The notes: generated by a model not told the origin, from the letters alone. 41,690 nt of DNA from a bacterium (GCA_020048285.1 JAIFMU010000013.1:1-41690); one strand, 5' to 3'. Shown: positions 21,721 to 41,690, numbered from the stretch's first letter. Program-made: numbers and translations.

Positions 21721-21867
21721 CTGATTTCACAAGAGTATTCGCTGATTATACAAGTGTTTTTACTGATTTTGCAAGTTGTTTTGCTGATTAAGAAAGTTCT
21801 TTTGCTGATTATACAAGCTTATTCGCTGATTTTATTAGATTGTCCGCTTGATTTATTTACTATTTTC
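21721..21867. repeat. 21-bp-period degenerate tandem array A (seven units)
   Basis: CTGATT recurs at 21721, 21742, 21763, 21784, 21805 and 21826, with CTTGATT at 21847: seven units with an exact 21-base period. The unit core is CTGATTATACAAGT, followed by a T-rich stretch ending TTTTCG. The array lies between the EF-G terminator and the ribosome binding site of the XRE regulator. A period of two helical turns puts every core on the same DNA face, as expected for cooperative binding sites. It is open in one frame as a hydrophobic heptapeptide repeat, but has no start site or composition to support coding. Confidence 0.85.
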
Positions 21868-21890
21868 TTCAGTCTTATTGAGGAGGGGCT

Positions 21891-22175
21891 ATGGAGTATG
21901 GGTACGAGAAGAGCAATCGAAAGAAACTCACTGATCGGGAACCGATTTGGTATGAAAACCAGGTGGCACTCTACCGAAAAATTCGCGGGATGAGTCAGGA
22001 AGAGCTAGGCAAAGCGGCACGAGTTTCTAAATCGACAATTTATCTAATTGAAAGTCGCCTGATCGAAGTAAAAATGAGTACGGCACTTCATCTGGCTCAA
22101 GCACTGGGAGTCGAGGTAGCGGATCTCTTTTTTTCTCCGGAAAAGAAACCGCCATTTCGCAGTGACGTTGTGTGA
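21891..22175 (+). CDS. XRE-family helix-turn-helix regulator
   Basis: The 94-residue protein has a Cro/CI-type DNA-binding domain at about residues 22-82: LYRKIRGMSQEELGKAARVS is helices 1-3 with the turn at GKAARVS, then KSTIYLIE (recognition helix) and ALHLAQALGVEVADLFF. The first 20 residues are charged, and the last 12 (PEKKPPFRSDVV) form a short tail. There is no effector domain, so any control depends on dimerisation or a partner. ATG 21891 has GAGGAGGGG upstream. The 21-bp array directly before the gene is the obvious candidate for its binding sites, i.e. autoregulation; this is inference. Confidence 0.88.
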   Translation: MEYGYEKSNRKKLTDREPIWYENQVALYRKIRGMSQEELGKAARVSKSTIYLIESRLIEVKMSTALHLAQALGVEVADLFFSPEKKPPFRSDVV

Positions 22176-22178
22176 TTA

Positions 22179-22353
22179 CACAACCTCTGCGCCACGGATC
22201 GCAACCAATCAATTCCAAATAAAAATCCGGCAGGATAATGCGTAGGGTTTTCACCCTACGTTATTATAAACCGCCCACTTCGGGGCTCAAATCCACACAA
22301 CCTCCCCGCCACGGATCACAACCAATCAATTCCAAATAAAAATCCGGCAGGAT
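22179..22353. repeat. Pair of 58-bp direct repeats around a hairpin
   Basis: The segments 22179-22236 and 22296-22353 are 58 bases each and differ at only about three positions; both contain CCACGGATC, then CAACCAATCAATTCC, then AAATCCGGCAGGAT. Between them CGTAGGGT-TTTC-ACCCTACG (22241-22260) forms a stable hairpin that could end transcription of the XRE gene. The repeats flank a 59-base spacer. They may be a small duplication or short mobile or regulatory elements. Confidence 0.9.
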
Positions 22354-22411
22354 TTATTTTTGACTTTATTAGCGATACAAAAATATTCCAATCATTCAAA
22401 GGATTTTTCTT

Positions 22412-23161
22412 ATGAAGACTACCAAATTACTGTTTCTCTTATTGGTTCTCTTTTCATTTGCAAATGCAGTGGTGTACCCTCTTGATACAGCAAATCTTAC
22501 GTGGGTAAATGGTGTTGCATATCAAAAAATGGAAAAGAATGGTATTACAATTTGGCTTGGATTTGATGATTTGACATCAGAAGAGTATTTGTACGCACGA
22601 GTTCTTCTAAAAAACAATACAGGAAGAACTATTAATATTGACTCTGATTGTATGCAAGGATATTCAATTTCTGAATATAGCAACTTTGCAAATTCCATAA
22701 AGGTAATTTCACCTGAAGAATTCATAACGAAAATTCGTAAACAAGCAAATGCCCTCGCAATTTTGGGTGGAATTTCAATCGGCTTACAAGGTGCATCTGG
22801 AATTATTAATGGATCTAACACATCAACATCAATTATGGCAATGAATAGTACTGCAAGTATGGTAGGTACTTCTGTAGACCGTTTAATTGTAAATGGGTAT
22901 TCCCGTGCCGATGGGCTTCTATATAAAACCAGTTTAGCTAATAATGAACAGATTTGTGGTACAGTTATTTTAGATAATGCACCAGAATCAGGCCAGTTAA
23001 ATATTCGGTTTTTAATAGGTAATATTGCGTTTTATTCTCGGAATTTTGCATCAAAATGGGAAACGGCCGATGTTAATACCGATGAGTTAGAGTCAGAATT
23101 CGCAAAACTTCCCCAATCGGTATTAACTGATACAACTGAATTTCAGAAGGTTTGGAAGTAA
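22412..23161 (+). CDS. Secreted protein of unknown function
   Basis: The 249-residue protein starts with a clear signal peptide (KTTKLLFLLLVLFSFANA, cleavage after about residue 19). The mature part begins VVYPLDTANLTWVNGVAYQK and looks beta-rich. A Gly/Ser/Ala-rich, weakly hydrophobic stretch lies at about 115-155 (ALAILGGISIGLQGASGIINGS), which might contact a membrane. Two cysteines (about 80 and 183) could form a disulfide. AAAGGA precedes the ATG. The gene is more AT-rich than metH next to it, as are the other unknown secreted proteins in this window, which hints at acquisition. I do not recognise a family. Confidence 0.7.
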   Translation: MKTTKLLFLLLVLFSFANAVVYPLDTANLTWVNGVAYQKMEKNGITIWLGFDDLTSEEYLYARVLLKNNTGRTINIDSDCMQGYSISEYSNFANSIKVISPEEFITKIRKQANALAILGGISIGLQGASGIINGSNTSTSIMAMNSTASMVGTSVDRLIVNGYSRADGLLYKTSLANNEQICGTVILDNAPESGQLNIRFLIGNIAFYSRNFASKWETADVNTDELESEFAKLPQSVLTDTTEFQKVWK

Positions 23162-23186
23162 TTGATGACTTCATCTTATATGAATT

Positions 23187-23232
23187 GAGGCAGGAGCCTC
23201 ACGACAGTCATTCCAAGGCAGTAGCCTTGGAA
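23187..23232. repeat. Twin REP-like hairpins upstream of metH
   Basis: GAGGC-AGGA-GCCTC (23187-23200) and TTCCAAGGC-AGTA-GCCTTGGAA (23211-23232) are two perfect stem-loops 10 bases apart, followed by AACGAG. No T-run follows. The shape is that of repetitive extragenic palindromes found in many copies in genomes with solo IS200-like transposases; one such transposase is at 27959-28402. From 23244 to 23273 the motif TCGTTG recurs at 8- and 16-base spacing. Confidence 0.75.
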
Positions 23233-23303
23233 CGAGAATTCATTCGTTGTGTCGTTGAATCATTGCATCGTTGAATCAGAAAAAATTACAAAAGGAATAG
23301 ATC

Positions 23304-26300
23304 ATGAAAAACCGTTACGACCTGCTTCGCGAAAAGCTTAAATCCGAAATCCTTGTGCTCGATGGAGCGATGGGGACGGAGATCCAGAAATACGGACTCA
23401 CCGAAGCGGACTATCGCGGGGAAAAGTTCAAGGAGAGCACGATTCTTCTCAAAGGGAACAACGACCTTCTCGTGTTCACTCGCCCCGATGTGATCGGCGG
23501 GATTCATACGGCCTATCTTGAAGCGGGCTCCGACATTATCGAAACCTGTACATTCAATTCAAACTCGGTGTCGCAGGAAGATTACAACCTTGAACACATC
23601 GTGGCAGAACTCAACTACGAAGGTGCGGTTCTGGCTCGTAAATGTTGTGACGCCATCGAAGCGAAAACTGGTCGTCCTCGTTTTGTTGCCGGAGTTGTGG
23701 GACCTACAAGCCGAACCGCTTCGATGTCGCCCGATGTGGAAAATCCCGCGTTTCGAAATGTGACCTTTGATCAGCTCGTGGAAACCTACTATGTTGCCGT
23801 GGAAAATTTGGTTCGCGGTGGGGTCGATGCGATTCTTATCGAAACCGTGTTCGACGGACTCAACGCAAAAGCGGCGGGATACGCGGTTCTCAAGTACAAC
23901 GAAGATAACAATGTGAATGTGCCGATCATGATCTCCGGAACGATCACCGATGCTTCGGGACGAACGCTCACCGGTCAGACCGCGGACGCGTTTTACAACT
24001 CGCTCATGCACCTCAAACCGATCACCTTTGGACTCAACTGTGCTCTCGGAACCGACGAAATGATTCCTCACCTTGAAAATCTCGACAAATGGGTTGAGTG
24101 CGGGATTTCGACTCACCCGAACGCGGGACTTCCCAACGAACTTGGTTCGTACGACGAACCGGCTTCGCACATGGCGGAAGTTCTCGGCAAGTGTGCGGAT
24201 CGTGGAATGTTCAATCTTGTGGGTGGATGTTGTGGAACCACGCCGGAACATATTCGCCTGATTTCTGAACAGGTTCGCGGGAAAAAACCGCGTGCGTATG
24301 GCGTTCGTTCTCCTTATATGAGACTTTCCGGCCTTGAAACCATGATCGTTTCGCCGGAAACGCTGTTCACCAATGTGGGCGAACGAACCAATGTTTCGGG
24401 ATCGCTGAAATTTGCTCGTCTCATTCGTGAAAAGAAATACGAAGAAGCTCTCTCGGTCGGTCAGGATCAGGTTGAAAACGGTGCTCAGATTATTGATGTG
24501 AACCTTGACGACGCGATGCTCGATGCAAAATCGGAAATGCGTCAGGTTCTCAACTATTTCGCCGTGGATCCAGCGGTTGCCCGCGTTCCGGTGATGGTGG
24601 ATAGTTCTCGCTGGGAAGTTATCGAAGAAGGACTCAAATCGATTCAGGGAAAAGGAGTTGTGAACTCAATTTCTCTCAAAGAGGGCGAAGAGATCTTTAT
24701 TCACCACGCCAAAACGATCATGAAATATGGTGCGGCGGTTGTGGTCATGGCGTTCGACGAGGTTGGTCAGGCGGACACGAAAGAGCGGAAAATCGAAATC
24801 TGTCACCGTTCGTATAAAATTCTGGTGGATCAGCTTGGATTCAATCCTCAGGACATCATTTTCGACCCGAACATTTTTGCCGTGGGAACCGGTCTCGAAG
24901 AGCATCGTCGCTACGCAATCGACTTTATCGAAGCGACCGCGGAAATCAAACGACTTATGCCTCAGGTACATATTTCCGGTGGTGTCAGTAATGTATCGTT
25001 CTCGTTCAGAGGAAATAATCCGGTTCGTGAAGCGATGCACAGCTGTTTCCTTTACGAAGCGATCAAAAACGGCATGGACATGGGGATCGTGAATCCGTCT
25101 ATGCTTCAGGTGTATTCCGACATCGATCCAGAACTGAAACTTCGCGTGGAAGATCTCCTGTTCGACCGTCGCGAAGATGCCACCGAACGCCTTTTGGACT
25201 TCGCTCAGAATGTTGAACAGACCGGCCCGAAAGAGGCGAAAACGCAGGAGTGGAGAAATGGAACTCCTTCAGAGAGAATCAAACACGCTCTCGTGAAAGG
25301 GATTACCGATTTCCTCAACGACGATGTGGAAGAGTTCCGTGCCAGCGTTCCGTCGAGCGTGCATGTGATCGAAGGTCCGCTCATGGACGGGATGAACTAT
25401 GTGGGCGAACTGTTCGGTTCCGGCCAGATGTTCCTTCCGCAGGTAGTGAAATCGGCTCGCGTGATGAAACAGGCGGTTGCGTACTTAGCTCCGTTCCTCG
25501 AAGCGGAAAAGGGCGACAACGAAACTTCGTCGGCGGGCAAGATTCTTTTGGCGACGGTCAAAGGCGATGTGCATGACATCGGTAAGAATATCGTCGGTAT
25601 CGTGTTGAAATGTAACAACTACGAAGTGATCGACCTCGGCGTGATGGTTCCTTCGGAGAAGATTTTCGAAGCGGCGATTGAACACAAGGTCGATGCGATC
25701 GGGCTTTCGGGACTGATCACGCCTTCGCTGGATGAAATGGTTCATATTGCTACCGTTATGGAAGAGAAAGGGATGACGATCCCGCTGATTCTCGGCGGAG
25801 CGACCACTTCGAAAGTTCACACGGCGGTGAAAATCGATCCGTGCTACTCCGGTCCGTCGGTTCATGTGAAAGACGCATCGCTCTGCCCCGGCGTGGTTCA
25901 GAAACTGCTCTCCAAAACCGAACGCGAAAGTTTTGTTAAAGAGATCAAGGCGGAATACGAACAGGTTCGCATCGATCGTCTCGGCAAAACCAAGTCGGAA
26001 AAAGTGTCGCTTTCGGAGGCTCGTGCGAACAAAATGGTTCCGTCGTTCGATTCGTACACGCCGACCACACCGTCGTTTGTGGGCACAAAAGTGTTTGACG
26101 ATTACGATCTTGCGGAAATTTCGAACTATATCGACTGGACATTCTTCTTTGCGGGATGGGAAATTCGCGGTGCATTCCCCGATCTTCTTACCGACGAAAA
26201 AACCGGTGCCGAAGCGACGAAGCTGTTCACGGACGCGAAAGCGATGCTGACCAAAATCATCGATGAAAAGTGGATCACGGCGAAAGCAGTTGTGGGTTTC

Positions 26301-26972
26301 TATCCGGCTCATTCGGTGGGCGATGACATTGTTCTCTTTGAAGATGATTCCAAAACCAATGTGATCGGAACTCTTCCGACCCTTCGCCAGCAGATGAAAA
26401 AGAATACCGCAAAACCGAACTTCGCTCTGGCGGATTTTATCGCTTCGAAAGATTCCGGCGTTGCTGACTACATCGGATTCTTTGCGGAATCAGCGGGATT
26501 CGGTGTGGAAACAAAAGTGCACGAGTTTGAATCTACCGGCGATGACTACTCGGCGATCATGATCAAACTACTTGCCGATCGTCTGGCCGAAGCGTTCTCG
26601 GAACTGCTTCACGAAAAAGTTCGCAAAGAGCTTTGGGGTTACGCGGCAGACGAATCGTTCACGCCGACGGAACTGTTCCGCGACAACTATCAGGGGATTC
26701 GTCCGGCGTCGGGCTATCCGGCAAATCCGTATCATCCGGAGAAAAAGTTCTATTTCGATCTGATGAAAGTAACCGAAACAATCAGCCTCGAACTGACCGA
26801 TTCGTTCATGATGAATCCGGTGGCGGCGGTGAGTGGTGTCTACTACGCTCACCCCGATTCTGCCTACTTCGCGGTGGGTAAGATCACGGATGAACAAATC
26901 GAAGAGTTCGCGGGCAGAGTCGGCGAGTCGGTAGAGTCGGCGAAGAGATGGTTGGAACCGAATCGGGAGTAA
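23304..26972 (+). CDS. metH: Cobalamin-dependent methionine synthase
   Basis: The 1222-residue enzyme transfers a methyl group from methyltetrahydrofolate through cob(I)alamin to homocysteine. All four modules are present. The homocysteine domain (1-325) has Zn ligands Cys246, Cys309 and Cys310 (GGCCGT). The pterin domain (about 345-630) starts [13 protein letters not shown]. The cobalamin module (about 640-880) has DVHDIGKN with the B12-coordinating His757, and [11 protein letters not shown]. The reactivation domain (about 890-1220) has [15 protein letters not shown] with Arg1133 for AdoMet binding. Residue numbers differ from E. coli MetH by one or two. Codon use is richer in C and G than in the flanking genes. 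I see no cobalamin riboswitch in the 142 bases upstream, which are filled by REP-like hairpins. Confidence 0.97.
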
Positions 26973-26983
26973 TTGCGATTTAA

Positions 26984-27041
26984 CGCTGCATCGACACACC
27001 GATGCAGCGAAACTCCGTAGGGGCGAACCTTGTGTTCGCCC
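26984..27041. repeat. Twin REP-like hairpins downstream of metH
   Basis: CGCTGCATCG-ACACAC-CGATGCAGCG (26984-27009) and GGGCGAAC-CTTGT-GTTCGCCC (27021-27041) are perfect stems of 10 and 8 base pairs, spaced 11 bases apart by AACTCCGTAGG. The first may end metH transcription, though no T-run follows. The second, with its CTCCGTAGGGGCGAAC start, looks like a widespread intergenic palindrome. Confidence 0.8.
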
Positions 27042-27094
27042 TGATTTAATATGAACTTACAATTTAAAATCACATGCAATTGTGAGGGTAACTG

Positions 27095-27607
27095 ATGGAT
27101 ACGGGTATTAAATCAAAAGCATTTCAGTTTTCGCTTGTGCTTATAAGTTTACTTCCACCCATACTTATTGCTCTTTATGTGTATTTTGAAATTAATTACG
27201 CCCTTAGCTTTATTTCCAGTGGATTACCATTGCGGCTACCGGTAAACCCCATTTTGGGAATGGCAATTATCGCCTTTGGGATAGCAGTTGCTGTAACCCC
27301 GCTTTATCTTCAATTTTGCATAATTGGGAGTAGTAGCATTAAGAAAATCTTACCATTCATACCACTTACTGGTTTAATACTGTGGATATGTCGGATTATC
27401 GTTGGACTGTTTCTATTGTCATTAAGTACACCCAGTGATTATTACTCTTGGGTTGATAGTAACGATTTGCCTATGAAATATCTTCAGGGACATTATTATG
27501 ATTTTTTTCTTGGAAGTGCATTTTTGATTTCATTTTTGGTTACATATGCGGCTACAAAACTACCGTGGGGTATCAGTACCAAAAAGAAACACAGCTATTT
27601 TGGATAA
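27095..27607 (+). CDS. Small integral membrane protein, unknown function
   Basis: The 170-residue protein has four predicted membrane helices: about 12-33 (FSLVLISLLPPILIALYVYF), 51-72 (ILGMAIIAFGIAVAVTPLYL), 85-108 (ILPFIPLTGLILWICRIIVG) and 137-155 (YDFFLGSAFLISFLVTYAA). No conserved charged residue lies within the helices, so transport is not indicated. It ends in a basic tail (STKKKHSYFG). GAGGGT lies before the ATG. It stands alone between REP-like elements and the transposase locus, and I recognise no family. Confidence 0.6.
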   Translation: MDTGIKSKAFQFSLVLISLLPPILIALYVYFEINYALSFISSGLPLRLPVNPILGMAIIAFGIAVAVTPLYLQFCIIGSSSIKKILPFIPLTGLILWICRIIVGLFLLSLSTPSDYYSWVDSNDLPMKYLQGHYYDFFLGSAFLISFLVTYAATKLPWGISTKKKHSYFG

Positions 27608-27651
27608 AAATGGTCGGTTCCATTTCTGTCCACCGGACAACCCGATCTCAG

Positions 27652-27680
27652 CCCACGGAGAATTCGTGGTGTTCGAATCA
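27652..27680. repeat. Dispersed CACGGAGAATC repeat, copy 1
   Basis: CCCACGGAGAATTCGTGG (27652-27669) recurs as CCCACGGAGAATCGGTGG at 28500-28517 and as CTCGTGGAGAATCGATGG at 37400-37417. Each is followed by TG and can fold as a small stem (CCAC...GTGG). All three lie in intergenic DNA. Confidence 0.65.
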
Positions 27681-27691
27681 AATCGGAAATC

Positions 27692-27955
27692 TTGTCCGAA
27701 GGACATCAGCATACCAGCCGTGGTCATCGGCCACGGGAGTCAACGGCCACGGGAGTCAACGGCCACGGGAGACATAACCCACGGAAGATTCACGCCCATG
27801 AAATTACGCGGCAACGCCGCACCGAACACGCCCCAACGGGGCATCGGATTCTTCGCCCCGTTGGGGCGTATTGATATCCCCGCTCCCCATTTCGTGGGCG
27901 ATGCCAATTCCGAGGGCGATGCCCACGGCTAGTATACATTCGTCCTTCGGACGAG
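27692..27955. repeat. REP-like inverted repeat cluster next to the transposase
   Basis: The left copy (27692-27738: TTGTCCGAAGGAC, then GCATACCAGCCGTGG) is matched in inverted orientation by the right copy (about 27919-27955: CCCACGGCTAGTATAC, then GTCCTTCGGACGAGG). Between them are a 16-base tandem repeat GGCCACGGGAGTCAAC starting at 27729, 27745 and 27761, a GCGGC-AAC-GCCGC hairpin (27808-27820), and a perfect 14-bp stem CGCCCCAACGGGGC / GCCCCGTTGGGGCG (27829-27842 and 27855-27868). Paired, inverted palindromes beside a RAYT-like gene are typical of REP/BIME clusters. No convincing ORF lies in 27608-27958. Confidence 0.8.
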
Positions 27956-27958
27956 GTT

Positions 27959-28402
27959 TCACGACCAGAGATACGCCTCATCATACGAAACCCCGTACCG
28001 ATCACAAATCCCGCGAAGTTCATCCTTAAAATCCAATTCTTTATGATGCACCTTCTGATTGTCGATATACCGAACCAGCTGATCCAAATGAGACTGACTG
28101 ATCGAAAAAATCCCGTACCCATCCTGCCAGTGGAAATTCGGATCGAACTGTTTCATCCATTTGGAACTGGGCCGTTTGATCTCTTCCAGAAGCATCGCCG
28201 CAGTAACGGTTCTCGGCAGTGAACAGGCGACATGCACATGATTCTCTGTTCCGCCAACCCGATATGCTTCGCACTTGACCACGCGAATACACTCGGCGAT
28301 ATACCTGTGAAGATGTTCCAGCTGATCAGCGGGAATCAGATTCTCTCGATTTTTGGTTGAAAAGACAATGTGGCAGATCATTTTTGAAAGTGATTGCGGC
28401 AT
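27959..28402 (-). CDS. Solo IS200/IS605-type Y1 transposase (RAYT-like)
   Basis: The 147-residue protein is a single-domain HUH/Y1 transposase. The metal-binding HUH pair is HVH at 55-57 (ENHVHVACSLPR), and the nucleophilic tyrosine is probably Tyr112 in LVRYIDNQKVHHKEL. The stretch HWQDGYGIFSIS (91-102) is typical of this group. I chose ATG at 28402, which has AAAGGGGAAATT before it; the in-frame ORF extends further upstream but without family similarity. No tnpB accessory gene and no IS ends are seen. The 3' side adjoins the inverted REP-like cluster, so the protein is more likely a REP-associated transposase than part of an active insertion sequence. The catalytic residues are intact. Confidence 0.88.
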   Translation of the reverse strand: MPQSLSKMICHIVFSTKNRENLIPADQLEHLHRYIAECIRVVKCEAYRVGGTENHVHVACSLPRTVTAAMLLEEIKRPSSKWMKQFDPNFHWQDGYGIFSISQSHLDQLVRYIDNQKVHHKELDFKDELRGICDRYGVSYDEAYLWS

Positions 28403-28499
28403 AATTTCCCCTTTGTTACCCCTTGTTTTGTTATCAAAGTGTACAGTAAGAACAACCGGATTTTCAACCCTGCCGATTCTTCCGTTCGCAACCAATCAT

Positions 28500-28517
28500 C
28501 CCACGGAGAATCGGTGG
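28500..28517. repeat. Dispersed CACGGAGAATC repeat, copy 2
   Basis: CCCACGGAGAATCGGTGG lies just before array B in the 28403-28881 gap. It matches the copies at 27652 and 37400, and is preceded by CAACCAATCAT, which also occurs in the 58-bp repeats at 22179 and 22296. Confidence 0.65.
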
Positions 28518-28544
28518 TGTTTGATCCGAGTCCTCCCATTTTTC

Positions 28545-28838
28545 AAACATGACCACCCAAACCTGAAGAATCCCCCAGCCCTTTCAAGAATGACCATTCA
28601 TTCATAAGGAATGAGTATCAAACCACAAAGAATGACCGGTAAATCGTTAAGAAAGGGTATCAAACGGTGAAGGATGACCGGTAAATCGTCAAGAATGAGC
28701 ATGAAATTCAATTGGTTATGGCATTTTTTGCGGAGATTCTCCGTCACACATGGAACAGGTATCTCAAATCGCTGAACACGACCGTATAATCGTTGAACAT
28801 GACGATGAAAGTCATCATGTTATGTGGCTTTTTCTGCC
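28545..28838. repeat. 21-bp-period degenerate array B (two sub-arrays with a repeated tail)
   Basis: Variants of AAGAATGACC recur at 28545, 28566, 28586, 28607, 28628, 28649, 28670 and 28691: spacing is 21 bases except for one of 20. A second set (GAACAGGT, GAACACGA, GAACATGA) starts at 28753, 28774 and 28795, again 21 apart. Both sets share AAATCG or ATCGT before the core. Each set ends with a similar tail: GGTTATGGCATTTTTTGC (28714-28731) and TGTTATGTGGCTTTTTCTGC (28819-28838). The array fills most of the 28403-28881 gap between the transposase start and the cysteine desulfurase 3' end. All frames carry stops, so it is not coding. Confidence 0.85.
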
Positions 28839-28881
28839 GTGTAGAGCAACCGTGCAATTCCGGTTCAACGTGCGATGTTTG

Positions 28882-30006
28882 TTAGCGTAGTTCCGCAATG
28901 GTCGATTCGAACTGATCCAAAAACTGTATAATTTCCGATTCGGTCGTCTTGGAAGAGAGGGAGATTCTGATCGCATGAGCGGCCCGATCTTCATCGCCGG
29001 TCATGGCGAGAATAATCGGGGAGAGTTCAGTTTTTTTCGAAGAACAGGCCGAGACCGTGGAGATATAAATCTCTTTTTTTACCAACCCGTGAAGGATCGT
29101 TTCGGGGCGAATTCCCGCTACGGAACAGTTGAGAATATAGGGCGACCCGGTTTCGGGCGAATTGATTATCACGCCGTCGATCCCGTTGAGTCGCTGGTGA
29201 ATGATCTGGTTGAGTCGCGTAACTTCGGCGTGTTGAACGGGGAGATTTTCTGTGGCAAGGCGAAGGGCTTTGGCAAAAGCGGCGGCGCGAGGTACATCGG
29301 CTGTTCCCGAGCGAAGATCAAACTCCTGCCCCCCGCCGATCATCTGAGATTGAATGATTTGTCGTTCGCGAAGAATCAGCGTACCCGATCCTTTAAGCCC
29401 GAAAAACTTATGCGCCGACAGGGAAAGAAAATCTACCGGGCACTCTTGTAATGAAAAAGGGATCTTTCCCACGCCCTGAACCGCATCGACATGGAACAGT
29501 GCCCGGTGATTTTTGAGCAGTTGTGCCAGTTCGCGGATTGGATTGATCGCTCCTGACTCATTGTTCACCATCATAATCGACACCAAAATCGTGTCGTCGG
29601 TGAGCACTTCGCGAACTTGTTCCACGGTTACCGCGCCATCGGCCCCGACCGGGAGTCGCGTGATTCGGAAGCCTCGCTGTTCGAGATACTCCATGACATT
29701 CGCCACAGAGGGATGTTCGCTGTTGGTGGTGATCAGGTGATTACCTCGACTGCGATACATTTCCGCAACTCCGCGAATTGCCAAATTGTTGCTTTCGGTT
29801 GCGCCAGAGGTGAAAATTGCTCGATATCCCGCGCCATCGAGGAGCGTCGTCACCTGTGATCGCGCCTGTTCGAGCAACTGTTCCGCTCGTTCACCGATTT
29901 TGTGAAGTGAATGAGGATTGGCCCAAAATGATTCGTACACTTTGGTATATGTTTCAAGAACAGATGGTTCCGGTGGGGTCGTGGCGGCATTATCAAGATA
30001 GATCAC
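28882..30006 (-). CDS. Cysteine desulfurase (NifS/IscS family)
   Basis: The 374-residue PLP enzyme takes sulfur from cysteine for Fe-S cluster or thio-cofactor assembly. It begins MIYLDNAATTPP. PLP contacts are His98 (NSEHPS), Asp174 and Gln177 (HVDAVQG), and the Schiff-base Lys200 in SLSAHKFFGLKG. The sulfur-accepting Cys321 lies in STVSACSSKK, a short loop of the NifS-like group II type rather than the long IscS loop. The start is GTG at 30004-30006, preceded by GGAGAA. The upstream gene on the same strand encodes a cysteine-cluster protein 54 bases away, probably in one operon. No iscU is present, so it is not a full ISC operon. Confidence 0.92.
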   Translation of the reverse strand: MIYLDNAATTPPEPSVLETYTKVYESFWANPHSLHKIGERAEQLLEQARSQVTTLLDGAGYRAIFTSGATESNNLAIRGVAEMYRSRGNHLITTNSEHPSVANVMEYLEQRGFRITRLPVGADGAVTVEQVREVLTDDTILVSIMMVNNESGAINPIRELAQLLKNHRALFHVDAVQGVGKIPFSLQECPVDFLSLSAHKFFGLKGSGTLILRERQIIQSQMIGGGQEFDLRSGTADVPRAAAFAKALRLATENLPVQHAEVTRLNQIIHQRLNGIDGVIINSPETGSPYILNCSVAGIRPETILHGLVKKEIYISTVSACSSKKTELSPIILAMTGDEDRAAHAIRISLSSKTTESEIIQFLDQFESTIAELR

Positions 30007-30060
30007 AGGTGTTCTCCGGGAAAAGTTCGGGCTGAAAATAGTTGCTGCCCCGCGCCTGTT

Positions 30061-30441: not shown

Positions 30442-30507
30442 TGTGGACTCTTTTCAGATCTGGGTATTTTGCTTGCCGGAAGATACATTTTGTTCACCCA
30501 AAATATG

Positions 30508-33181: not shown

Positions 33182-33238
33182 AGTAAGCCTCCTGGTTATG
33201 AGTCATTATACCACCGCTTTTTAGGGATTACAACACAC

Positions 33239-33263
33239 AAAAAAAGGGCTCCCGAAGGAACCC
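33239..33263 (-). terminator. Terminator of ilvE
   Basis: On the minus strand GGGTTCC (33263-33257) pairs with GGAGCCC (33252-33246) across a TTCG tetraloop and runs into seven T. Confidence 0.93.
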
Positions 33264-33289
33264 TCAATTCAAAACGGAACTGCACAGAC

Positions 33290-34312: not shown

Positions 34313-34464
34313 GAATCTCTCCTTATTCTGAATTGAATTGTCTTCACAAAGAAAATAGATCCCGCCGAAAAGATCTGGATTTTGAAATATGAGAGAAATG
34401 AGGTTGAAAATCTCTGTGAAAATGGTGGTTACTCGTAAAACGGAACTTCGACAACCACGAAAAT

Positions 34465-34493
34465 GAAGAAAGGAGATGCGGTTGGGCATTTCT
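34465..34493 (-). terminator. Mobile terminator-like hairpin, degraded copy
   Basis: AAGGAGATGC (34470-34479), GTTGGG and GCATTTC (34486-34492) match the two intact copies at 39704 and 40399, with decay of the right arm. On the minus strand it follows the 3' end of the gene at 34514-35128 by about 20 bases. Confidence 0.65.
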
Positions 34494-34513
34494 ATCAAGT
34501 ATCGGTTAACTTT

Positions 34514-35128
34514 TTAAGGACACTCGAGATTGAGCCGAGCTTTAGTGACTCGAACATTGTGGTCCAACAATATTTCTTTAACAGACCTTTCCGGACGTTT
34601 GATCAGTGAGAATGGGAGACTTACTGTGAGTAGGGATGCCCCTGTGATCAGTAGTGGTGCAGTCACTTGCGAAGATCGTGTCACATTCTCTTTTTGTGAA
34701 ACAGAAGCAAAAAAGAGAGTAAAAAAGCCGACGCAAGCACCAGCCCCTACCAAAGAACCACCTGTTATTGCAAGCGTTGTTGCCGTAAATTTATATGGTT
34801 TTCTTTCGTTGTACTCTCGTAATTCACCCTCCGTAAAAACTTCAAATCGATCTTTGGAATTCCCATTTCCATCCGTTAAGGTATTCGATAATTTCGTATA
34901 TGTGTGAACATACAAATGAGATTTAAAAAGAGAGTCTGTAGAAATGTGTTCGTCCGGGAACATACTATCAAATTGTGTCATTGTTTGGTTAAAGCTATCC
35001 CATCTTTTATTCCCTGGAGAATTCAATAGAAATGACTTACCAAGAGAATTCTCAATTATGGCGCAGTTATGCTCTTCACCAAAAATGAACATTGCTAGAA
35101 ATAAAAGTACGAGTAGATCTCTTTTCAC
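34514..35128 (-). CDS. Secreted protein with two membrane segments, unknown function
   Basis: The 204-residue protein starts with a signal peptide (KRDLLVLLFLAMFIFG). Two hydrophobic stretches follow at about 115-140 (TLAITGGSLVGAGACVGFFTLFF) and 152-170 (VTAPLLITGASLLTVSLPF); the C-terminal 35 residues are charged. The start is GTG at 35126-35128, preceded by AAAGGAT. Base composition and codon use are more AT-rich than in ilvE and cimA on either side. I recognise no family. It ends in the same terminator sequence as the accessory loci at 39.8 and 40.5 kb. Confidence 0.65.
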   Translation of the reverse strand: MKRDLLVLLFLAMFIFGEEHNCAIIENSLGKSFLLNSPGNKRWDSFNQTMTQFDSMFPDEHISTDSLFKSHLYVHTYTKLSNTLTDGNGNSKDRFEVFTEGELREYNERKPYKFTATTLAITGGSLVGAGACVGFFTLFFASVSQKENVTRSSQVTAPLLITGASLLTVSLPFSLIKRPERSVKEILLDHNVRVTKARLNLECP

Positions 35129-35192
35129 GATTATCCTTTCACGAGAAACGGGCAGTTTCTAACACTGCTCACCATCAAATACATTCTTGTTA

Positions 35193-35723
35193 TCAGAAAA
35201 ATTCCTTGCGTATCGACCGTTTGAAACGGCGGACTACCCCCGCGGTTTCCCGTTCCTCTCTTAGATGGGATTTTCTGCCTACAAACGAATTGAACAGTGA
35301 TTCATGGCCGGAATGGGATCGCAAATCAGTGCGAGTATAGTATTCAGATGCCCACTGTATGAGGTTTGCAAGATTCGTTTCCGTTTGAATCCGATCATGG
35401 TGAATACGGTTTTCACTCCCGCGATCTATCAGCCGTTTTTTGCAGATTTCCCATGGGATATCGAGCCAGATCAGCGTTGTCGCCGAGAGAATAAACGATT
35501 GCGCCAGTTCACCGAAGACACCTTCCACAATCCACGATTCTGATGTGAGAGATTCCTGAATAAGTTGATCAACCGTTTCCGGCGATCGTTTGCGGTCAAA
35601 TCCATTCGGTTCCCAAAAGAGATTGTCGAGATGGGTAACAGGAAATCCGGTCTGATCATGGAGTGTATTAGCCAGCCATGTTTTACCGGATCCGCTGTTT
35701 CCAAGGATGATGATTTTGTTCAT
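35193..35723 (-). CDS. Small P-loop kinase-like NTPase (FlaR / adenylate-kinase-like)
   Basis: The 176-residue protein has Walker A GNSGSGKT at 8-15. LDNLFWEPNGFDRK and WIVEGVFGE (about 62-72) resemble the FlaR or topology-modulation group of adenylate-kinase-like NTPases. LIWLDIPWEICKKRLIDRG is the Walker B-like strand plus lid helix. A phosphate acceptor cannot be inferred. It lies 11 bases after cimA on the same strand, so it is probably co-transcribed, though no functional link is known. It ends with a basic tail (RRFKRSIRKEFF). Confidence 0.82.
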   Translation of the reverse strand: MNKIIILGNSGSGKTWLANTLHDQTGFPVTHLDNLFWEPNGFDRKRSPETVDQLIQESLTSESWIVEGVFGELAQSFILSATTLIWLDIPWEICKKRLIDRGSENRIHHDRIQTETNLANLIQWASEYYTRTDLRSHSGHESLFNSFVGRKSHLREERETAGVVRRFKRSIRKEFF

Positions 35724-35734
35724 TGGTGATTCTA

Positions 35735-37303
35735 CTATCCCCGCATCTGCTCTTTCAAAAGCTTATACTTGATCGAATCGAGAAGGGCAATCCACGACGC
35801 TTCGATAATATTGGTCGAAACGCCGATGGTTCCCCACCGTTCAAATCCGTCGGAACTTTCGATCAGCACGCGCACTTTTGCCGCTGTTCCCTGCGAACCT
35901 TCGAGCACGCGCACCTTGAAATCTTCGAGACGAACCTCTTTCATCACCGGATAGATCGCGCCCACCGCCTTATAGAGTGCATTGCTCAATGCATCAACGG
36001 GACCATCGCCTTCGGCCGCAGTGAACACTTCGAGATCGCCGTCGAACACCTTGATAGTCGCCTCGGAAACCGGCGGGTTAGTATCGTGTTTTTCTTCGAT
36101 AACCCGAAAACTCTTGATCGTGAACGGCTGAACAAAATCGCCCAGTTCTTCGTGAACAATCAGCTGGAACGAACCGTCCGCCGCTTCGAAATGGTAGCCG
36201 TCTTTCTCCATATCCTTGATTCGCGCCAGAAGGTTCTGGACGATCGGATCCTTTTTGTCGAGATCAGGGCGAATATCCTTGAGCTTTTCGAGAATCGTCC
36301 CCGATCCGGCCTGATCGGAAATGACGAAATTGCGCTTGTTGCCCACTTGTTCGGGCTGAATATGTTCGAAAGCGCGGCGAACCTTGCGCACGCCGTCCAC
36401 ATGAGCGCCCGCTTTGTGAGAAAACGCAGCTTCACCCACATAGGGCGCACGAATATTGAATCCCGTGTTTGCAATATCAGAGACATAGATCGCCGTTTCG
36501 GTGATCGAAGCGAGCTGTTCGTCCGTGATCAGCGGAATATTGAGTTTCAGCTGAAGAGCGGGAATGATCGTGCAGAGATTGGCGTTTCCGCACCGTTCGC
36601 CGAGCCCGTTGATCGTTCCCTGTACATGAACCGCTCCCAATTCCACGCCGTAAATCGAGTTCGCTTCGGCGCACCCTGTGTCATTATGAAGATGCAGTCC
36701 CAGAGGTGCGGTGATTTTGCTCTGTACATCGAGAAAGATCCGGCGAAAATCCCCGGTGAGCATGCCGCCGTTGGTATCGCAGAGAACAATGCAGTCCGCG
36801 CCCGCTTCTTGAGCCGCCAAAAGGGAACGAATCGCGTAGTCCGGATTGGCGCGGTATCCGTCAAAGAAGTGTTCCGCGTCGTAGACTACTTCGTCCTTGC
36901 GCGCCTTGAGATACGCCACCGATTCGGAAATCATGGTGAGATTTTCATCGAGAGAACAGCGGATAACATCGGTGACGTGAAGATCCCAGCTCTTGCCGAA
37001 AATGGTAGCCACCGGCGCGTTGGCTCGAACCACATCGGCGATAAACGGATCATCTTCGATCTTGGTTCCCGGCCGTTTCGTCGAACCGAACGCGGCGATC
37101 TTTGCCTTGAGATTCAGCTTGTGCACTTCCGGGTAGAATCTCGAATCGATTTCATTGGTCGGATTCGGCCAGCCCCCTTCTATGTAGTGAACTCCCAAAG
37201 CATCCAGTTTTTCTGCCACTTCGAGCTTGTCCCGAAGCGAAAGTCCGATGCCGATAGCCTGATTTCCGTCGCGCAGTGTTGTATCGTATATCTGAACGTT
37301 CAT
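35735..37303 (-). CDS. cimA: Citramalate synthase
   Basis: The 522-residue enzyme condenses pyruvate and acetyl-CoA to citramalate, the threonine-independent start of isoleucine synthesis. It has the isopropylmalate-synthase-type TIM barrel: YDTTLRDGNQAIGIGLS (6-22) with metal ligand Asp7, LHLHNDTGCAEANS, and the family signature GTINGLGERCGNAN. HKAGAHVDGV is the metal-binding and hinge region. A C-terminal regulatory domain (about 400-515) suggests feedback control by isoleucine. The length and DTTLRDGNQ form fit the TIGR00977 group rather than LeuA. A 541-residue ORF on the opposite strand is a shadow. Confidence 0.93.
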   Translation of the reverse strand: MNVQIYDTTLRDGNQAIGIGLSLRDKLEVAEKLDALGVHYIEGGWPNPTNEIDSRFYPEVHKLNLKAKIAAFGSTKRPGTKIEDDPFIADVVRANAPVATIFGKSWDLHVTDVIRCSLDENLTMISESVAYLKARKDEVVYDAEHFFDGYRANPDYAIRSLLAAQEAGADCIVLCDTNGGMLTGDFRRIFLDVQSKITAPLGLHLHNDTGCAEANSIYGVELGAVHVQGTINGLGERCGNANLCTIIPALQLKLNIPLITDEQLASITETAIYVSDIANTGFNIRAPYVGEAAFSHKAGAHVDGVRKVRRAFEHIQPEQVGNKRNFVISDQAGSGTILEKLKDIRPDLDKKDPIVQNLLARIKDMEKDGYHFEAADGSFQLIVHEELGDFVQPFTIKSFRVIEEKHDTNPPVSEATIKVFDGDLEVFTAAEGDGPVDALSNALYKAVGAIYPVMKEVRLEDFKVRVLEGSQGTAAKVRVLIESSDGFERWGTIGVSTNIIEASWIALLDSIKYKLLKEQMRG

Positions 37304-37399
37304 GGTTCCCCCAAATGGATTTGTTCTAACGATTCTAAAATAGATTGAAACTCAATCGTGCTATCGGTCGATTTTCGTCATTGGAACACCCGAATTCAG

Positions 37400-37417
37400 C
37401 TCGTGGAGAATCGATGG
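37400..37417. repeat. Dispersed CACGGAGAATC repeat, copy 3
   Basis: CTCGTGGAGAATCGATGG, preceded by CCGAATTCAG, lies between cimA and the small membrane gene. It is a diverged copy of the elements at 27652 and 28500. Confidence 0.5.
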
Positions 37418-37472
37418 TGCGCGGTGTATATTTACCGATCAAATGAATGTAGAAAACGTGTGAGGTGAATTC

Positions 37473-37727
37473 GTGAACATTTTCGCAGAAATTCTCGGTG
37501 TGATCGGTTCGATCTGTATCGTCTACAGCTATTTCGCCATTGAAAAAGGGTGGATGAATCGCGATGACCTTCGCTACTACGTGATCAATCTGGCCGGAGC
37601 AATTCTTCTGACAATCAGCCTGATTTTTAATTTCAATCTCGGCAGTTTTATGATTGAGATGTTCTGGATCTGGATCTCCGTGGCGGGATTGATTCGACTG
37701 CAGCGGGAAAAGAAGAGCCGCCTGTAG
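37473..37727 (+). CDS. Small membrane protein, CBU_0592-like
   Basis: The 84-residue protein has three hydrophobic segments: about 4-23 (FAEILGVIGSICIVYSYFAI), 35-55 (YYVINLAGAILLTISLIFNF) and 58-75 (LGSFMIEMFWIWISVAGLI). The arrangement, with NxxGAxLLxISLIxNFNLGSF, resembles the small CBU_0592-type membrane proteins. The start is GTG, with GAGGTG upstream. The function of the family is unknown. It stands alone, divergent from cimA. Confidence 0.7.
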   Translation: MNIFAEILGVIGSICIVYSYFAIEKGWMNRDDLRYYVINLAGAILLTISLIFNFNLGSFMIEMFWIWISVAGLIRLQREKKSRL

Positions 37728-37908
37728 AATCATTGCGGTCAAACACATTGTCATACACGCACATTTAGCCCCATAAAAATCTCTATCCAAAAACTTTTCA
37801 TTCTATCTTTAAAAAAAGATTCAACTTTCGGGAACTTTTGTCACTTCTGCTCTGTCACAGAGTTCGGAAGGGGAAATGCCCCGCAAATTCATTTATTAGG
37901 AGGATTCT

Positions 37909-39657
37909 ATGAAACCGATGAAACTGATCGCGTATACGACCTTGGCGGTGATCGTCATGAGTTGTGCAAAAAAAGCAGTGGTCACTGCGCCGGAACCGGT
38001 GAAAGAAGTTATGGCTGTAACAAAGCAAGATGTCTCTCAAGAACAGAAAAAACAGGAAATCCTTGAGAAGATTGAACAGGTTCGGAGCGCGAAGATGGCC
38101 ACTGAAGGAAAAAGCATGAATGTCACTTCCAGTGCTAATATCGCTGGCTATGCCGGAGTTCCGATGGTCGTGGGAGCCATGCCCACGCGTATGATGAAAC
38201 AGGAAGAGTCACTGCGCGATCTCAATCGCGGTGGTATTGCGCCGAACCAGGAGTTTAATACCGAAGAGTACAACCACATCACCGAAAACCAATTTCTTCG
38301 CGTCACTGATGAACCGCTTTCGACCTTTTCCATCGATGTTGATGGCGCATCGTTTAGCAATGCCCGCCGGTTCTTGATGCAACAGAGTCGTCGTCCTCCT
38401 GTTGATGCGGTTCGGATCGAAGAGTTTTTCAACTATTTCCGCTACAACTACCCCAATCCCACCGGTGAACATCCGTTCTCCATTACCACCGAACTAGGCG
38501 CCTGCCCGTGGAACGATTCGCACAAACTCGTGCATATCGGTATTCAGGGGAAAATGATTGATTTAAGTAAAGCGGCGCCGTCAAACCTCGTCTTTCTACT
38601 TGACGTATCGGGATCGATGAACGAATCGAACAAACTGCCCTTGGTGAAAAAATCGTTGGGGCTCCTTCTCGATGAAATGCGTCCCACCGATCGAATCGCA
38701 CTAGTAGTCTACGCCGGAGCTGCCGGAACCGTGCTTCCTTCCACGCCGGTGTCACAAAAAGAGTTAATCCTCACCGCCATCGATCGCCTCAGTGCCGGTG
38801 GTTCCACTGCGGGAGGTCAGGGAATTGAACTGGCGTATAAAACGGCAAAAGAGAATTTCATTCACAACGGAAACAACCGAGTCATTCTCGCCACCGATGG
38901 AGATTTCAACGTGGGCGTTTCCAGCGAATCAGAACTGGTGCGACTCATTGAAACGAAGAGAAATGAAAAGATATTTCTCACCGTGTTGGGATTCGGCACA
39001 GGGAACTACTCCGATGCGCGGATGGAACAGCTCGCCAATAAGGGGAACGGAAACTACGCCTATATCGACAATCTTCTCGAAGCAAAAAAGGTGTTGGTCA
39101 CCGAAATGGGCGGAACGCTGTTTACCATTGCCAAAGATGTAAAACTACAGATCGAGTTTAATCCTGCCGAAGTGGCTTCCTATCGATTGATCGGCTACGA
39201 AAACCGTCGACTCAACAACGAAGATTTCAACGACGACACCAAGGATGCGGGCGAACTGGGAGCGGGCCACACGGTGACCGCACTCTATGAAATTGTTCCA
39301 GTGGGCGCCGAAAAAGACACGCTGAGTAAAGTGGATCCACTGAAATATCAGTCAAAACCTGAAGTGAAACGTTCCGGCGATCTCTGCACGGTGAAATTTC
39401 GCTACAAGGCTCCCGAAGGCGATACGAGTAAACTGATCGAAAAGGTGCTGACGCCTTCGATGCGCGGCGGTTCTGATATGAACTGGGCGGTGTCGATGGC
39501 GGGATTTGGCATGCTCCTTCGCGAATCGAAACACGCCGGAACACTCACCTGGGAACAGTTGCTCTCCATGGCGCGCGACAGCCGCGGTGAAGATCGCGAT
39601 GGGTATCGGGCTGAAGCGATTCGCATGATCGAACAGGCGCAGATCCTGACGAAATAA
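37909..39657 (+). CDS. YfbK-like von Willebrand factor type A lipoprotein
   Basis: The 582-residue protein has a signal peptide ending in the lipobox VMSC (Cys19), so it is lipid-anchored. Residues 40-130 are a variable linker. LSTFSIDVDGASFSNARRFL (138-157) is the YfbK-type N-terminal domain. The VWA domain (about 225-400) carries the MIDAS motif DVSGSM (232-237), with TDGDFNVG as the later metal site. A DUF3520-like C-terminal domain (about 400-582) follows. VWA domains bind ligands or partners through Mg2+; the exact partner is unknown. AGGAGG precedes the ATG. The gene appears monocistronic. Confidence 0.93.
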   Translation: MKPMKLIAYTTLAVIVMSCAKKAVVTAPEPVKEVMAVTKQDVSQEQKKQEILEKIEQVRSAKMATEGKSMNVTSSANIAGYAGVPMVVGAMPTRMMKQEESLRDLNRGGIAPNQEFNTEEYNHITENQFLRVTDEPLSTFSIDVDGASFSNARRFLMQQSRRPPVDAVRIEEFFNYFRYNYPNPTGEHPFSITTELGACPWNDSHKLVHIGIQGKMIDLSKAAPSNLVFLLDVSGSMNESNKLPLVKKSLGLLLDEMRPTDRIALVVYAGAAGTVLPSTPVSQKELILTAIDRLSAGGSTAGGQGIELAYKTAKENFIHNGNNRVILATDGDFNVGVSSESELVRLIETKRNEKIFLTVLGFGTGNYSDARMEQLANKGNGNYAYIDNLLEAKKVLVTEMGGTLFTIAKDVKLQIEFNPAEVASYRLIGYENRRLNNEDFNDDTKDAGELGAGHTVTALYEIVPVGAEKDTLSKVDPLKYQSKPEVKRSGDLCTVKFRYKAPEGDTSKLIEKVLTPSMRGGSDMNWAVSMAGFGMLLRESKHAGTLTWEQLLSMARDSRGEDRDGYRAEAIRMIEQAQILTK

Positions 39658-39703
39658 AAAGGAATTCATTGCACACTATGTAGCTTGAGAATTGCGGGTC
39701 AGA

Positions 39704-39736
39704 TGAAAAAAGGAGATGCCGGTTGGGCATCTCCTT
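39704..39736 (-). terminator. Mobile terminator-like hairpin, intact copy 1
   Basis: AAGGAGATGCC (39710-39720) and GGCATCTCCTT (39726-39736) form a perfect 11-bp stem with loop GGTTG. On the minus strand it runs into six T. It follows the toxin gene. The identical hairpin recurs at 40399-40429. Confidence 0.9.
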
Positions 39737-39822
39737 GAAATATAGTCAGTTTCTGGTTCGGTGAGACGGAAACTTACGGGAGGGCTGACCAAACCGGATA
39801 CAGGTCAGGAGATAAGTACCTG

Positions 39823-40092
39823 TTATTTGTAAATGTCCCCTCGAGATCCTGCATCGTAGACATAGACAACAATCTGTTCATCCAGAACCCGATAGAGGAA
39901 TCGGTACTTGCCAATCCGAAGCCGGTAGTCATTTTCTGAACCTTGCATTTTTTTAATATCGACAATTTCTGACGTCCGTGGCGTACACTTAAGTTCATCA
40001 ATCGCTTCTTTGAATTTTCTCAAGAGAGTTGCATCGGTATGTTTTTGAAAGAATTTCTGCACTGTTTTGTGGAATTCGACTTTATAATTCAC
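39823..40092 (-). CDS. RelE/ParE-family toxin
   Basis: The 89-residue protein has the RelE/ParE pattern: VEFHKTVQKFFQKH near the start, KKMQGSENDYRLRIGKYRFLYRVLDEQIVVYVYDAGSRGDIY at the C-terminus, with the conserved Arg/Tyr set and the final GxRxxxY form (GSRGDIY). Such proteins cleave mRNA on the ribosome or poison gyrase. I chose GTG at 40090-40092, so it overlaps the antitoxin gene by 11 bases; the longer frame from 40149 reads through the antitoxin. The overlap is typical of toxin-antitoxin pairs. Protein order is antitoxin then toxin. Confidence 0.85.
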   Translation of the reverse strand: MNYKVEFHKTVQKFFQKHTDATLLRKFKEAIDELKCTPRTSEIVDIKKMQGSENDYRLRIGKYRFLYRVLDEQIVVYVYDAGSRGDIYK

Positions 40093-40297
40093 CAAAGAAC
40101 TCTTTTGCAAACTCCTCTTCAGATACTGTGTTTCCTTTTTTGAAATCATCCATTGCTGAATCGCGCAATTTCAGTTCGTTACTCGTAAAAACAGTGTCAT
40201 CTTCTTCTGAAAGAATTTTGACGCCTTTGTCAATATGAGTGAGAAGCCAAATAAGGTGATCCTTTACCTGCGGTTCAACATCAATAGTTAGAATCAT
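40082..40297 (-). CDS. Antitoxin of the RelE/ParE-type pair
   Basis: The 71-residue protein has an acidic, helical C-terminal half (VFTSNELKLRDSAMDDFKKGNTVSEEEFAKEFFGEL) that should wrap the toxin. The N-terminal half (ILTIDVEPQVKDHLIWLLTHIDKGVKIL) is less typical and is not a clear RHH or Phd domain, so DNA binding is uncertain. ATG 40297 is preceded by GGAGGAA. It overlaps the toxin by 11 bases. Confidence 0.75.
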   Translation of the reverse strand: MILTIDVEPQVKDHLIWLLTHIDKGVKILSEEDDTVFTSNELKLRDSAMDDFKKGNTVSEEEFAKEFFGEL

Positions 40298-40398
40298 ACC
40301 TGTTCCTCCGGTTTTCGTATTTGTCCCATGTCGGAAATATACACTTTTAACTCGAAACCTTAAACAGAAATAAAAGTTGGTAAATCGCGGGGCTGATG

Positions 40399-40429
40399 AA
40401 AAAAGGAGATGCCGGTTGGGCATCTCCTT
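40399..40429 (-). terminator. Mobile terminator-like hairpin, intact copy 2
   Basis: The same 11-bp stem and GGTTG loop as at 39710 lies here (AAGGAGATGCC 40403-40413, GGCATCTCCTT 40419-40429). The upstream flank GCGGGGCTGATGAAAAAA matches the other copy. It follows the 3' end of the gene at 40502-41425. Confidence 0.9.
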
Positions 40430-40501
40430 GAACAATTGAGTGGTGTGAGTCAGTCACCCCTCAGGTGTATGTTAGAAATCTTTGTTTGCGTCCAAAATGT
40501 G

Positions 40502-41425
40502 TTATTGCCCATTTTTTTTCATGCTTACATATCTTTCAAAAAAATCAACAAATTGTACACCCTGTTGGATTTTTGACAGGGCATCATATTCAGAGTATAG
40601 AGCAGGTATATCTTTGAAAATTGATCCATCTGGATAATAAGTTGGCACACTATTTACTATAGGGGTTAGACTTATTCTGGGAATCCTACTAGTTTTGGGA
40701 GGAGTTAGTGAAAATACCGACACCCATTCTATTGTTGAAGAAATTGAACTATTTGAATTAATCCCACCCATTGCACTCCCAACATTTACTTTTGAAGAAA
40801 TTGTAGTATGGTGCCAAATGAATGTTCCATCAAAATTTAGAGGAATAAAGTAAGAATTACAATCAAACATACGAGAATCATCTTCTTTTACATAGAATCG
40901 TGTACCATCATAACAACCCCATATTTTGCGTTTTTCCCAGATCTTTTTAGAATCAGATGGCACTTTAAAATTAAAGTGTTCAACATTCTTTATTTTATCA
41001 TCTGAAATTTTTGCATTGAACCGATTAACAGTATCTTCTTTCGCTCGTTCCATCACAATTTCATCACATCCATAAACCGGTGTGTTATAATAAAAGTCCA
41101 TCCAATGTCGATAGAATCCAACCTTTATTTTTTCTCGAGGCAATGTATAAATGGTTTTTGACGTATCCCAATCTGGCGTTATCAATTTCCCTCTATAAAA
41201 CTGATATGTTAGTGAATCAATGGAAATCGAACGAACACTATCAAGTAAAAACTCAACAGCAACATCCTTTATTCTTGCTGTTACATACTTTGTTGATTGA
41301 TCTAAAAGTTGATCTATGTTTGTTATGGTACATGAGCCTTTCTTTCCATTTAGTAATTCTATACGATCGAGCGGTTTTCCAACCAATACACTAAACATGA
41401 CAAGAACAGACATGAAGAACTTCAT
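40502..41425 (-). CDS. Secreted protein of unknown function
   Basis: The 307-residue protein starts with a signal peptide (KFFMSVLVMFSVLVG). The mature part is rich in Tyr, Ile, Ser and Lys, with TARIKDVAVEFLLDSVRSISI and SISIDSLTYQFYRGKL suggesting beta strands; a Gly/Ser/Asn-rich stretch lies at about 215-230 (VGSAMGGINSNSSISSTIEW). Cysteines at about 32, 120, 170 and 189 could pair. AAGGA precedes the ATG. It is AT-rich like the other unknown secreted proteins. I recognise no family. The mobile terminator copy follows it. Confidence 0.7.
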   Translation of the reverse strand: MKFFMSVLVMFSVLVGKPLDRIELLNGKKGSCTITNIDQLLDQSTKYVTARIKDVAVEFLLDSVRSISIDSLTYQFYRGKLITPDWDTSKTIYTLPREKIKVGFYRHWMDFYYNTPVYGCDEIVMERAKEDTVNRFNAKISDDKIKNVEHFNFKVPSDSKKIWEKRKIWGCYDGTRFYVKEDDSRMFDCNSYFIPLNFDGTFIWHHTTISSKVNVGSAMGGINSNSSISSTIEWVSVFSLTPPKTSRIPRISLTPIVNSVPTYYPDGSIFKDIPALYSEYDALSKIQQGVQFVDFFERYVSMKKNGQ

Positions 41426-41599
41426 TTTATACTAATCCTTAAAACAATTTTATTTATACTTTTCAACTATTATTCAAAAGGTAAAACCAAAAGTCAAACT
41501 AACAACTAGATAGTGTGGCGAGAATAACTAACCTAAATTATATCTTTTTGCGCCTTAACTGCCAGTTTCGCACACTACTCACTCTAAAAAGGTTGTTTT

Positions 41600-41690
41600 C
41601 CCCGTCATGACAATGATTCACCCCGTCATGACAATGATTCACCCCGTCATGACAATGATTCACCCCGTCATGACAATGATTCACCCCGTC
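41600..41690. repeat. Perfect 21-bp tandem array C, cut by the window edge
   Basis: Units starting CCCCGTCATGACAATG begin at 41600, 41621, 41642 and 41663, all identical and 21 bases long, with seven bases of a fifth unit at 41684-41690. The array continues beyond the window. Read on the minus strand, the unit shares the core CATGAC and the TTG and TCA ends with the array B unit at 28795, so C is probably the same family in the opposite orientation. At 41510-41576 an imperfect inverted repeat (TAGTGTGGCGA and TCGCACACTA) precedes it. Confidence 0.95.

Follow-up and report, generated by a model that had tools for sequence, protein, structure and literature searches.

The window, a stretch of 41,690 nt, raised the question of what three intergenic arrays of the same 21-base period and unequal decay represent. 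It corresponds to contig C199 of a metagenome assembly of 3.4 Mb (272 contigs, estimated to be ~70% complete), of which 1.28 Mb were sampled. As to its origin, a large paralogous family, TIGR02147, gave 24 matches in 24 places of this genome (G000), 23 of them above the cut-off, which suggests a Fibrobacterota-like genome, this family being named after Fibrobacter succinogenes. The EF-G-like protein of the window, in contrast, showed 65-69% identity to Desulfobulbales proteins among the matches listed. A sequence-only reading had taken the three arrays for one family of related units whose spacing is under selection; as a whole, this interpretation was partly supported.

To begin with, the three arrays were confirmed as real and non-random, as claimed. 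Their identities at lag 21 were 0.739 (array A), 0.418 (array B) and 1.000 (array C), and none of 1,000 dinucleotide shuffles reached the observed value in any of the three cases when all lags between 10 and 63 were considered, with concordant TRF results. Lag 21 was the best lag for all of them, tied with lag 42 in array C. Array A (21718-21849, plus strand; TRF score 91) comprised six 21-bp units with a TYGCTGATTWTACAAG core plus a variable 5 bp, and a seventh, decayed unit; its unit was not found as an array elsewhere in the genome. Between the EF-G-like gene and this array, a terminator-like hairpin with a T run was present (21666-21698, plus strand), the stretch from stop codon to array folding at -26.8 kcal/mol. 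Array B (28545-28838) was a degenerate and interrupted 21/42-bp array, best preserved at 28615-28698, with a second block at ~28760-28815 and a 105-bp higher-order repeat in register. Its blocks kept their register despite the interruption, one of them recurring at 105 bp (5 x 21). This array lay on the 3′ side of a class V aminotransferase gene (28882-30006, minus strand; Pfam Aminotran_5, 2.3e-71), and about 50 bp from the start of an IS200-like Y1 transposase gene (27959-28495, minus strand; Pfam Y1_Tnp, 2.3e-20; NCBIfam transpos_IS200, 2.4e-12, under its cut-off). The neighbouring gene differed at the orthologous locus of the same-genus genome G001, which therefore gave no empty-site comparison. 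Finally, array C (41600-41690) consisted of identical 21-bp units of CCCCGTCATGACAATGATTCA (100% in TRF) cut at the contig end. Since contig C5 terminates in the same unit on the opposite strand, it is very probable that array C extends into C5, the two forming a compound array.

The kinship that had been proposed between the units of these arrays did not hold, as their best-rotation alignments were matched by 3 to 24 of 40 shuffled units. The nearest case, array B against a variant of the array C family at C16, lay near the 99th percentile of the chance distribution for one pair. Furthermore, no Rfam match was found anywhere in the window.

A search of the sampled genome at lag 21, which the earlier reading had named as a check, was answered strongly. 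TRF found a total of 57 arrays in the 1.28 Mb whose period was 20-22, 40-43 or a higher multiple of ~21, which extrapolates to 150 arrays in the genome. The letters of the arrays varied between places, while the repeat length was almost always 21 or a multiple of it. Moreover, 53 of the 57 were intergenic when the ORFs made of repeats were set aside, with 88% of the DNA being genic according to rough gene calls. Thus, the class was set by period rather than by sequence, and was intergenic and neither CRISPR nor coding, as had been read from the window; the expected further arrays shared the period and lacked a universal core. Exact runs of at least 14 were found at 22 loci for lag 21, 28 for lag 42, 12 for lag 63, 14 for lag 84, 7 for lag 105 and 12 for lag 126, with side values at 20, 40, 41 and 82, while no locus of this genome appeared at lags 31, 32, 52 or 53. 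In a convenience control of 1.24 Mb, formed by 80 loci of other bacteria all around one conserved gene, the peaks at multiples of 21 were absent. As lags 31-32 and 52-53 were empty, the period is quantised in 21-bp units rather than in single helical turns, odd turn numbers beyond one being absent. These missing odd half-multiples argue against the helix face alone as what matters, so that, of the two helical turns invoked before, the 21-bp step stood and the helical phase by itself did not.

Periods of 20, 41 and 43 were also frequent, and the intergenic DNA still showed a residual autocorrelation peak at lag 21 (lags 8 to 109) once the called arrays had been removed. In several arrays of 41-42 bp (L078, L082, L090, L099 and others), the 21-bp halves had no similarity, opposite to L027, L056, L109 and array B, indicating that the length can be set or kept without visible homology at 21. 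Half-units were exchanged in register within arrays, and isolated two-copy duplications of 20-22 bp, the seeds one would expect, were few. Regarding position, 5 of 36 arrays lay between divergent genes, compared with 30% of the long intergenic gaps, a weak tendency towards fewer than expected; arrays were also found on the 3′ side of ordinary genes (EF-G, DnaA and class V aminotransferase). For instance, a 21-bp array was observed 63 bp past the 3′ end of dnaA (L068, 13194-13315). In close relatives, where the earlier reading had advised a comparison, the class was seen sparsely: few such arrays were present in two genomes of the same family (G002 and G003, ~0.2 Mb sampled in each), and one clear 41-bp array in G001 (0.11 Mb), densities that are based on 0.1-0.2 Mb per genome.

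The rate of indels per substitution within arrays was 0.077, equal to the 0.077 gap openings per mismatch of dispersed elements in the same genome, and since TRF favours indel-free arrays, the true ratio would be higher if anything. Selection on the spacing after the birth of an array, as had been suggested, is therefore not supported; what can safely be stated is that the 21-bp step is fixed when copies arise or become established.

Judged by sequence, the array units form families, as 31 pairs of units scored at least 20 compared with 8 expected when all units were considered. No core common to all arrays was found, with weak k-mer enrichment at most. In particular, the core GACGGGGTRAAHC (minus strand) had 18 exact matches genome-wide, all of them within four array loci. 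Two of these arrays (C218 and C272) were located behind genes of a protein family described below and referred to as A1, the core facing one way relative to the gene at C218 and the other way at C272, and two were away from A1 genes (C16 and the C199/C5 junction, i.e. array C). The flank of array C (41527-41598) was 78-83% identical to sequences beside four arrays with other units (L030, 8005-8073; L068, 13107-13180; L076, 2198-2287; L062, 9141-9201). This flank was considered as a leader and rejected, given that predicted genes lie downstream of it at four or more of its loci and that three loci were paralogous duplications, both of which point to a promoter-region or dispersed element. The conserved flank beside these five arrays carried TAGTGCG/CACCCTAAA motifs, possibly representing a promoter region or regulatory element.

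The comparison of flanks led to the A1 family, as the arrays at C218, C211 and C184 proved to sit behind paralogous genes. It is a fast-diverging, multi-copy family of ~255-aa proteins, and a search with one paralogue recovered distant relatives (17-25% identity) in the same genome and in G001, G005 and G008. A 21-bp array, mostly with unrelated units, was found directly 3′ of the A1 gene at 11 of the 12 loci examined, these 11 belonging to three genomes: 7 of 7 in the genome of the window, 2 of 2 in G001 and 2 of 2 in G005, from another family of the order, while the single locus of G008 (C401) had no array. TRF arrays were located behind the genes at C211, C218, C184, C194, C262 and C272, at C23 and C551 of G001, and at C300 of G005. 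At C112 a short array was present, interrupted where an insertion-like sequence closes the contig, and at C278 of G005 a degenerate array of ~11 units was seen by eye and partly by TRF. The array family of C112 also appeared at C212; this was considered as its continuation and rejected, as the C212 array is internal to its contig and thus a second locus of the family. An array within 150 bp 3′ was found for 2.5% of 1,150 sampled genes, a background that comes from TRF calls with that limit, whereas the arrays at C278 and C112 were recognised partly by eye. The binomial tail for 11 of 12 is ~3e-17, and still ~1e-12 when the three close paralogues enter as one, figures to be read as strength and not as exact probabilities, since 7 of the 12 loci come from one genome and kinship is partly accounted for. 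As a loose control, among the TIGR02147 copies in the sampled stretches only that at C10 had an adjacent TRF array.

The gap between stop codon and array at the A1 loci ranged from 6 to 139 bp, and in most of the 11 loci it contained a stable hairpin resembling an intrinsic terminator. The three paralogous loci had been duplicated together as gene, array and flank; overall, the neighbours of A1 loci differed, and no conserved border was found past the array. Of 40 genomes from the order, a profile search detected A1 in 19, with a maximum of 18 copies, and it gave no match in the other genomes of the phylum that were searched. Between 7 and 18 copies were present in each of G022, G025, G027 and G029. 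It was absent from G002-G004, where the sampled array density was low. In the genome of the window, ~12 A1 genes, five of them at C111, C129, C130, C226 and C231, compare with ~150 extrapolated arrays, most of which have no A1 neighbour. The proteins were acidic overall, had no Pfam match, no known DNA-binding domain and no transposase, nuclease or recombinase signature, and no relatives of them were found in plasmids and viral contigs. Comparison with solved structures gave no trustworthy match (the best was to a designed protein, with an E-value of 0.0043), and NCBIfam hinted weakly, under its cut-off, at the 'PQLLE family'.

The reading favoured here, with a probability of roughly 0.4, is that the arrays belong to the bacterial intergenic tandem repeats of constant period and variable sequence and act as multi-site binding arrays of double-stranded DNA, with A1 as the leading candidate binder in this order. 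Each 21-bp unit would hold one binding site at the level of double-stranded DNA; behind the terminator that ends each A1 gene would lie the array belonging to it, and related arrays elsewhere, such as array C, would be sites where the same paralogue could bind. The protein may load on the array, perhaps with its molecules next to one another, and its binding may serve local chromosome organisation or the control of neighbouring genes. A role of the double-stranded DNA is favoured by the order of gene, terminator and array, the core appearing in both orientations and the lack of RNA structure, while the many equal sites, two turns apart and adjoining a paralogue-specific gene, suggest that a protein loads on the array. 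Accordingly placed among the roles first listed, cooperative DNA-binding sites fit best, with the binding and the cooperativity themselves being what we infer. This reading is weakened by the acidity of the A1 proteins and their lack of a known DNA-binding domain, the few A1 genes per array, the want of a universal core and an indel rate that gives no sign of purifying selection on the spacing. That A1 and the 21-bp arrays form an undescribed chromosomal protein-DNA system, made up of arrays owned by each paralogue and of distant cognate arrays, is a bolder proposal, less probable than not.

The main rival, which we hold to be a real possibility though short of an even chance, is a mutational process in which a duplication step of ~21 bp (by template switching, repair synthesis or unequal exchange) generates satellites that then decay neutrally, the link to A1 arising from a site preference or from a mobile past in common. 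Neutral decay is explained well in this way, given the equal indel-to-substitution ratios of arrays and dispersed elements, and the arrays behind ordinary genes, their under-representation between divergent genes, the replacement of half-units in register and the lack of a universal core all agree with it. The scarcity of two-copy seeds speaks against such a process, which also leaves unexplained a near-universal link between A1 and arrays that persists at 17-25% identity, across two families and with each locus having its own units. Alternatively, the A1 gene and its array could be a selfish or mobile unit, the other arrays being gene-less remnants or copies scattered by recombination. This seems improbable: the high copy number and fast divergence of A1, the joint duplication of the three paralogous loci and the dispersal of arrays of one unit across contigs would suit it, while the missing enzyme signatures, the differing neighbours, the lack of a conserved border and the absence of plasmid or viral matches would not.

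Transcription of the arrays into repetitive small RNAs or sponges, proposed in the literature for the same repeat class (PMC8161180) and, as regards small RNAs, also for the window, is not supported and is considered very improbable. Over 50 units, neither palindromes nor RNA folding showed an excess of note (palindrome mean z of 0.29), the RNA structure being no higher than that of shuffled units; moreover, terminator-like hairpins precede most A1 arrays and array A, and the common core takes either orientation relative to the A1 gene. Least credible of all is that the arrays encode heptad repeats, 21 bp being seven codons. Some arrays are indeed open in one frame, as often happens by chance with units of 21 bp, but periods of 20, 41 and 43 are frequent, nearly all the arrays are intergenic, and the units of arrays A and B contain stop codons and drift at all positions.

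Constant-size, variable-sequence tandem repeats of 20-23 nt were reportedly described in bacteria by Subirana and Messeguer (J Bacteriol, 2020). A later study presents repeats that keep a constant size of 20-21 (or 52) nt while their sequence varies; its authors remark on the two helical turns and put forward nucleoid proteins or small RNAs as explanations, with evidence for neither (Int J Mol Sci 2021, PMC8161180). There, the class is described as non-coding, 20-23 nt long, with several families per genome, a species-specific sequence and unknown function (PMC8161180). The arrays found here share the constant size, with a strong additional 41-43 class, the sequence that differs between arrays, the several families and the intergenic location; the minimum of four copies per array used for detection in that class is reached by many of them, including A and C, while some of the 57 have fewer. 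In that class, most arrays of one species carry a short characteristic motif; the observation here was weak k-mer enrichment, with GACGGGGTRAAHC confined to its four array loci. The arrays differ from that class in their higher multiples, in having no short sequence common to all and in their linkage to a protein family. Hence, the repeat class itself was already known, catalogued in many bacteria without function or partner protein, and what is new here is the absence of odd-turn multiples, a 42-bp class without 21-bp substructure and the linked protein family. This makes A1 a first candidate protein for repeats that are otherwise unexplained, and turns its link to the arrays into a bench question: does the protein bind its own array, with the 21-bp period as its footprint? 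A1, found in this order only among the genomes searched, cannot account for the class outside it, as in Bacillus and others.

Other known arrays resembled these ones in part. In plasmid replication origins, iterons are direct repeats set in tandem at roughly two helical turns, with the Rep gene adjacent. The likeness, which is one of layout only, comprises the tandem direct repeats, the ~two-turn step and the position beside the gene of a candidate binder; in contrast, many chromosomal loci are involved here, there are no origin features, and no match to a Rep family or winged helix was found in A1, nor a Rep match in its neighbours. The sopC locus of F is a centromere-like partition array with 43-bp repeats. 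Arrays of that type are tandem sites beside a partition gene, whereas no ParA/ParB genes adjoined the arrays here and many arrays occur per genome. In RAYT/REP systems, palindromic repeats lie beside a Y1 transposase, and several protein paralogues have differing repeats. The latter is shared by A1, and a Y1 transposase gene adjoins array B; however, that gene was present at array B only, and the units here are tandem, of fixed period and not palindromic. Unlike CRISPR arrays, the units follow head-to-tail without spacers.

At array A, an alternative local binder could be the XRE-type (HTH_3) regulator encoded ~60 bp downstream (21891-22175, plus strand; Pfam HTH_3, 6e-10). Just two homologues of it were found in the sampled genome, each with a 20-21-bp array upstream, at 88 bp (C198) and 25 bp (C185) from the gene. 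With three cases, this link is weaker than that of A1 and suggestive only.

Furthermore, other repeats were observed in the window and around the arrays. At L082 (5733-5882), L089 (7029-7177), L097 (9036-9200) and L038, a MITE-like element was present whose terminal inverted repeats are near TATTGCTCCGCGGGGCAAA and whose interior holds a long palindrome, and a longer insertion-like sequence with similar ends closed contigs C22 and C112. Dispersed palindromes with CCTGAGCTTGTCGAAGG lay near several arrays (L071, L090, L075, L064, L088 and L056). In the window, an intergenic 16-bp array of GTCAACGGCCACGGGA units (27723-27784) was located ahead of the Y1 transposase gene, and a dispersed intergenic repeat (23180-23280) had many copies in G001. 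Finally, a 59-bp intergenic direct duplication (22178-22236 and 22295-22353) with 95% identity was found, which G001 also has (L241).
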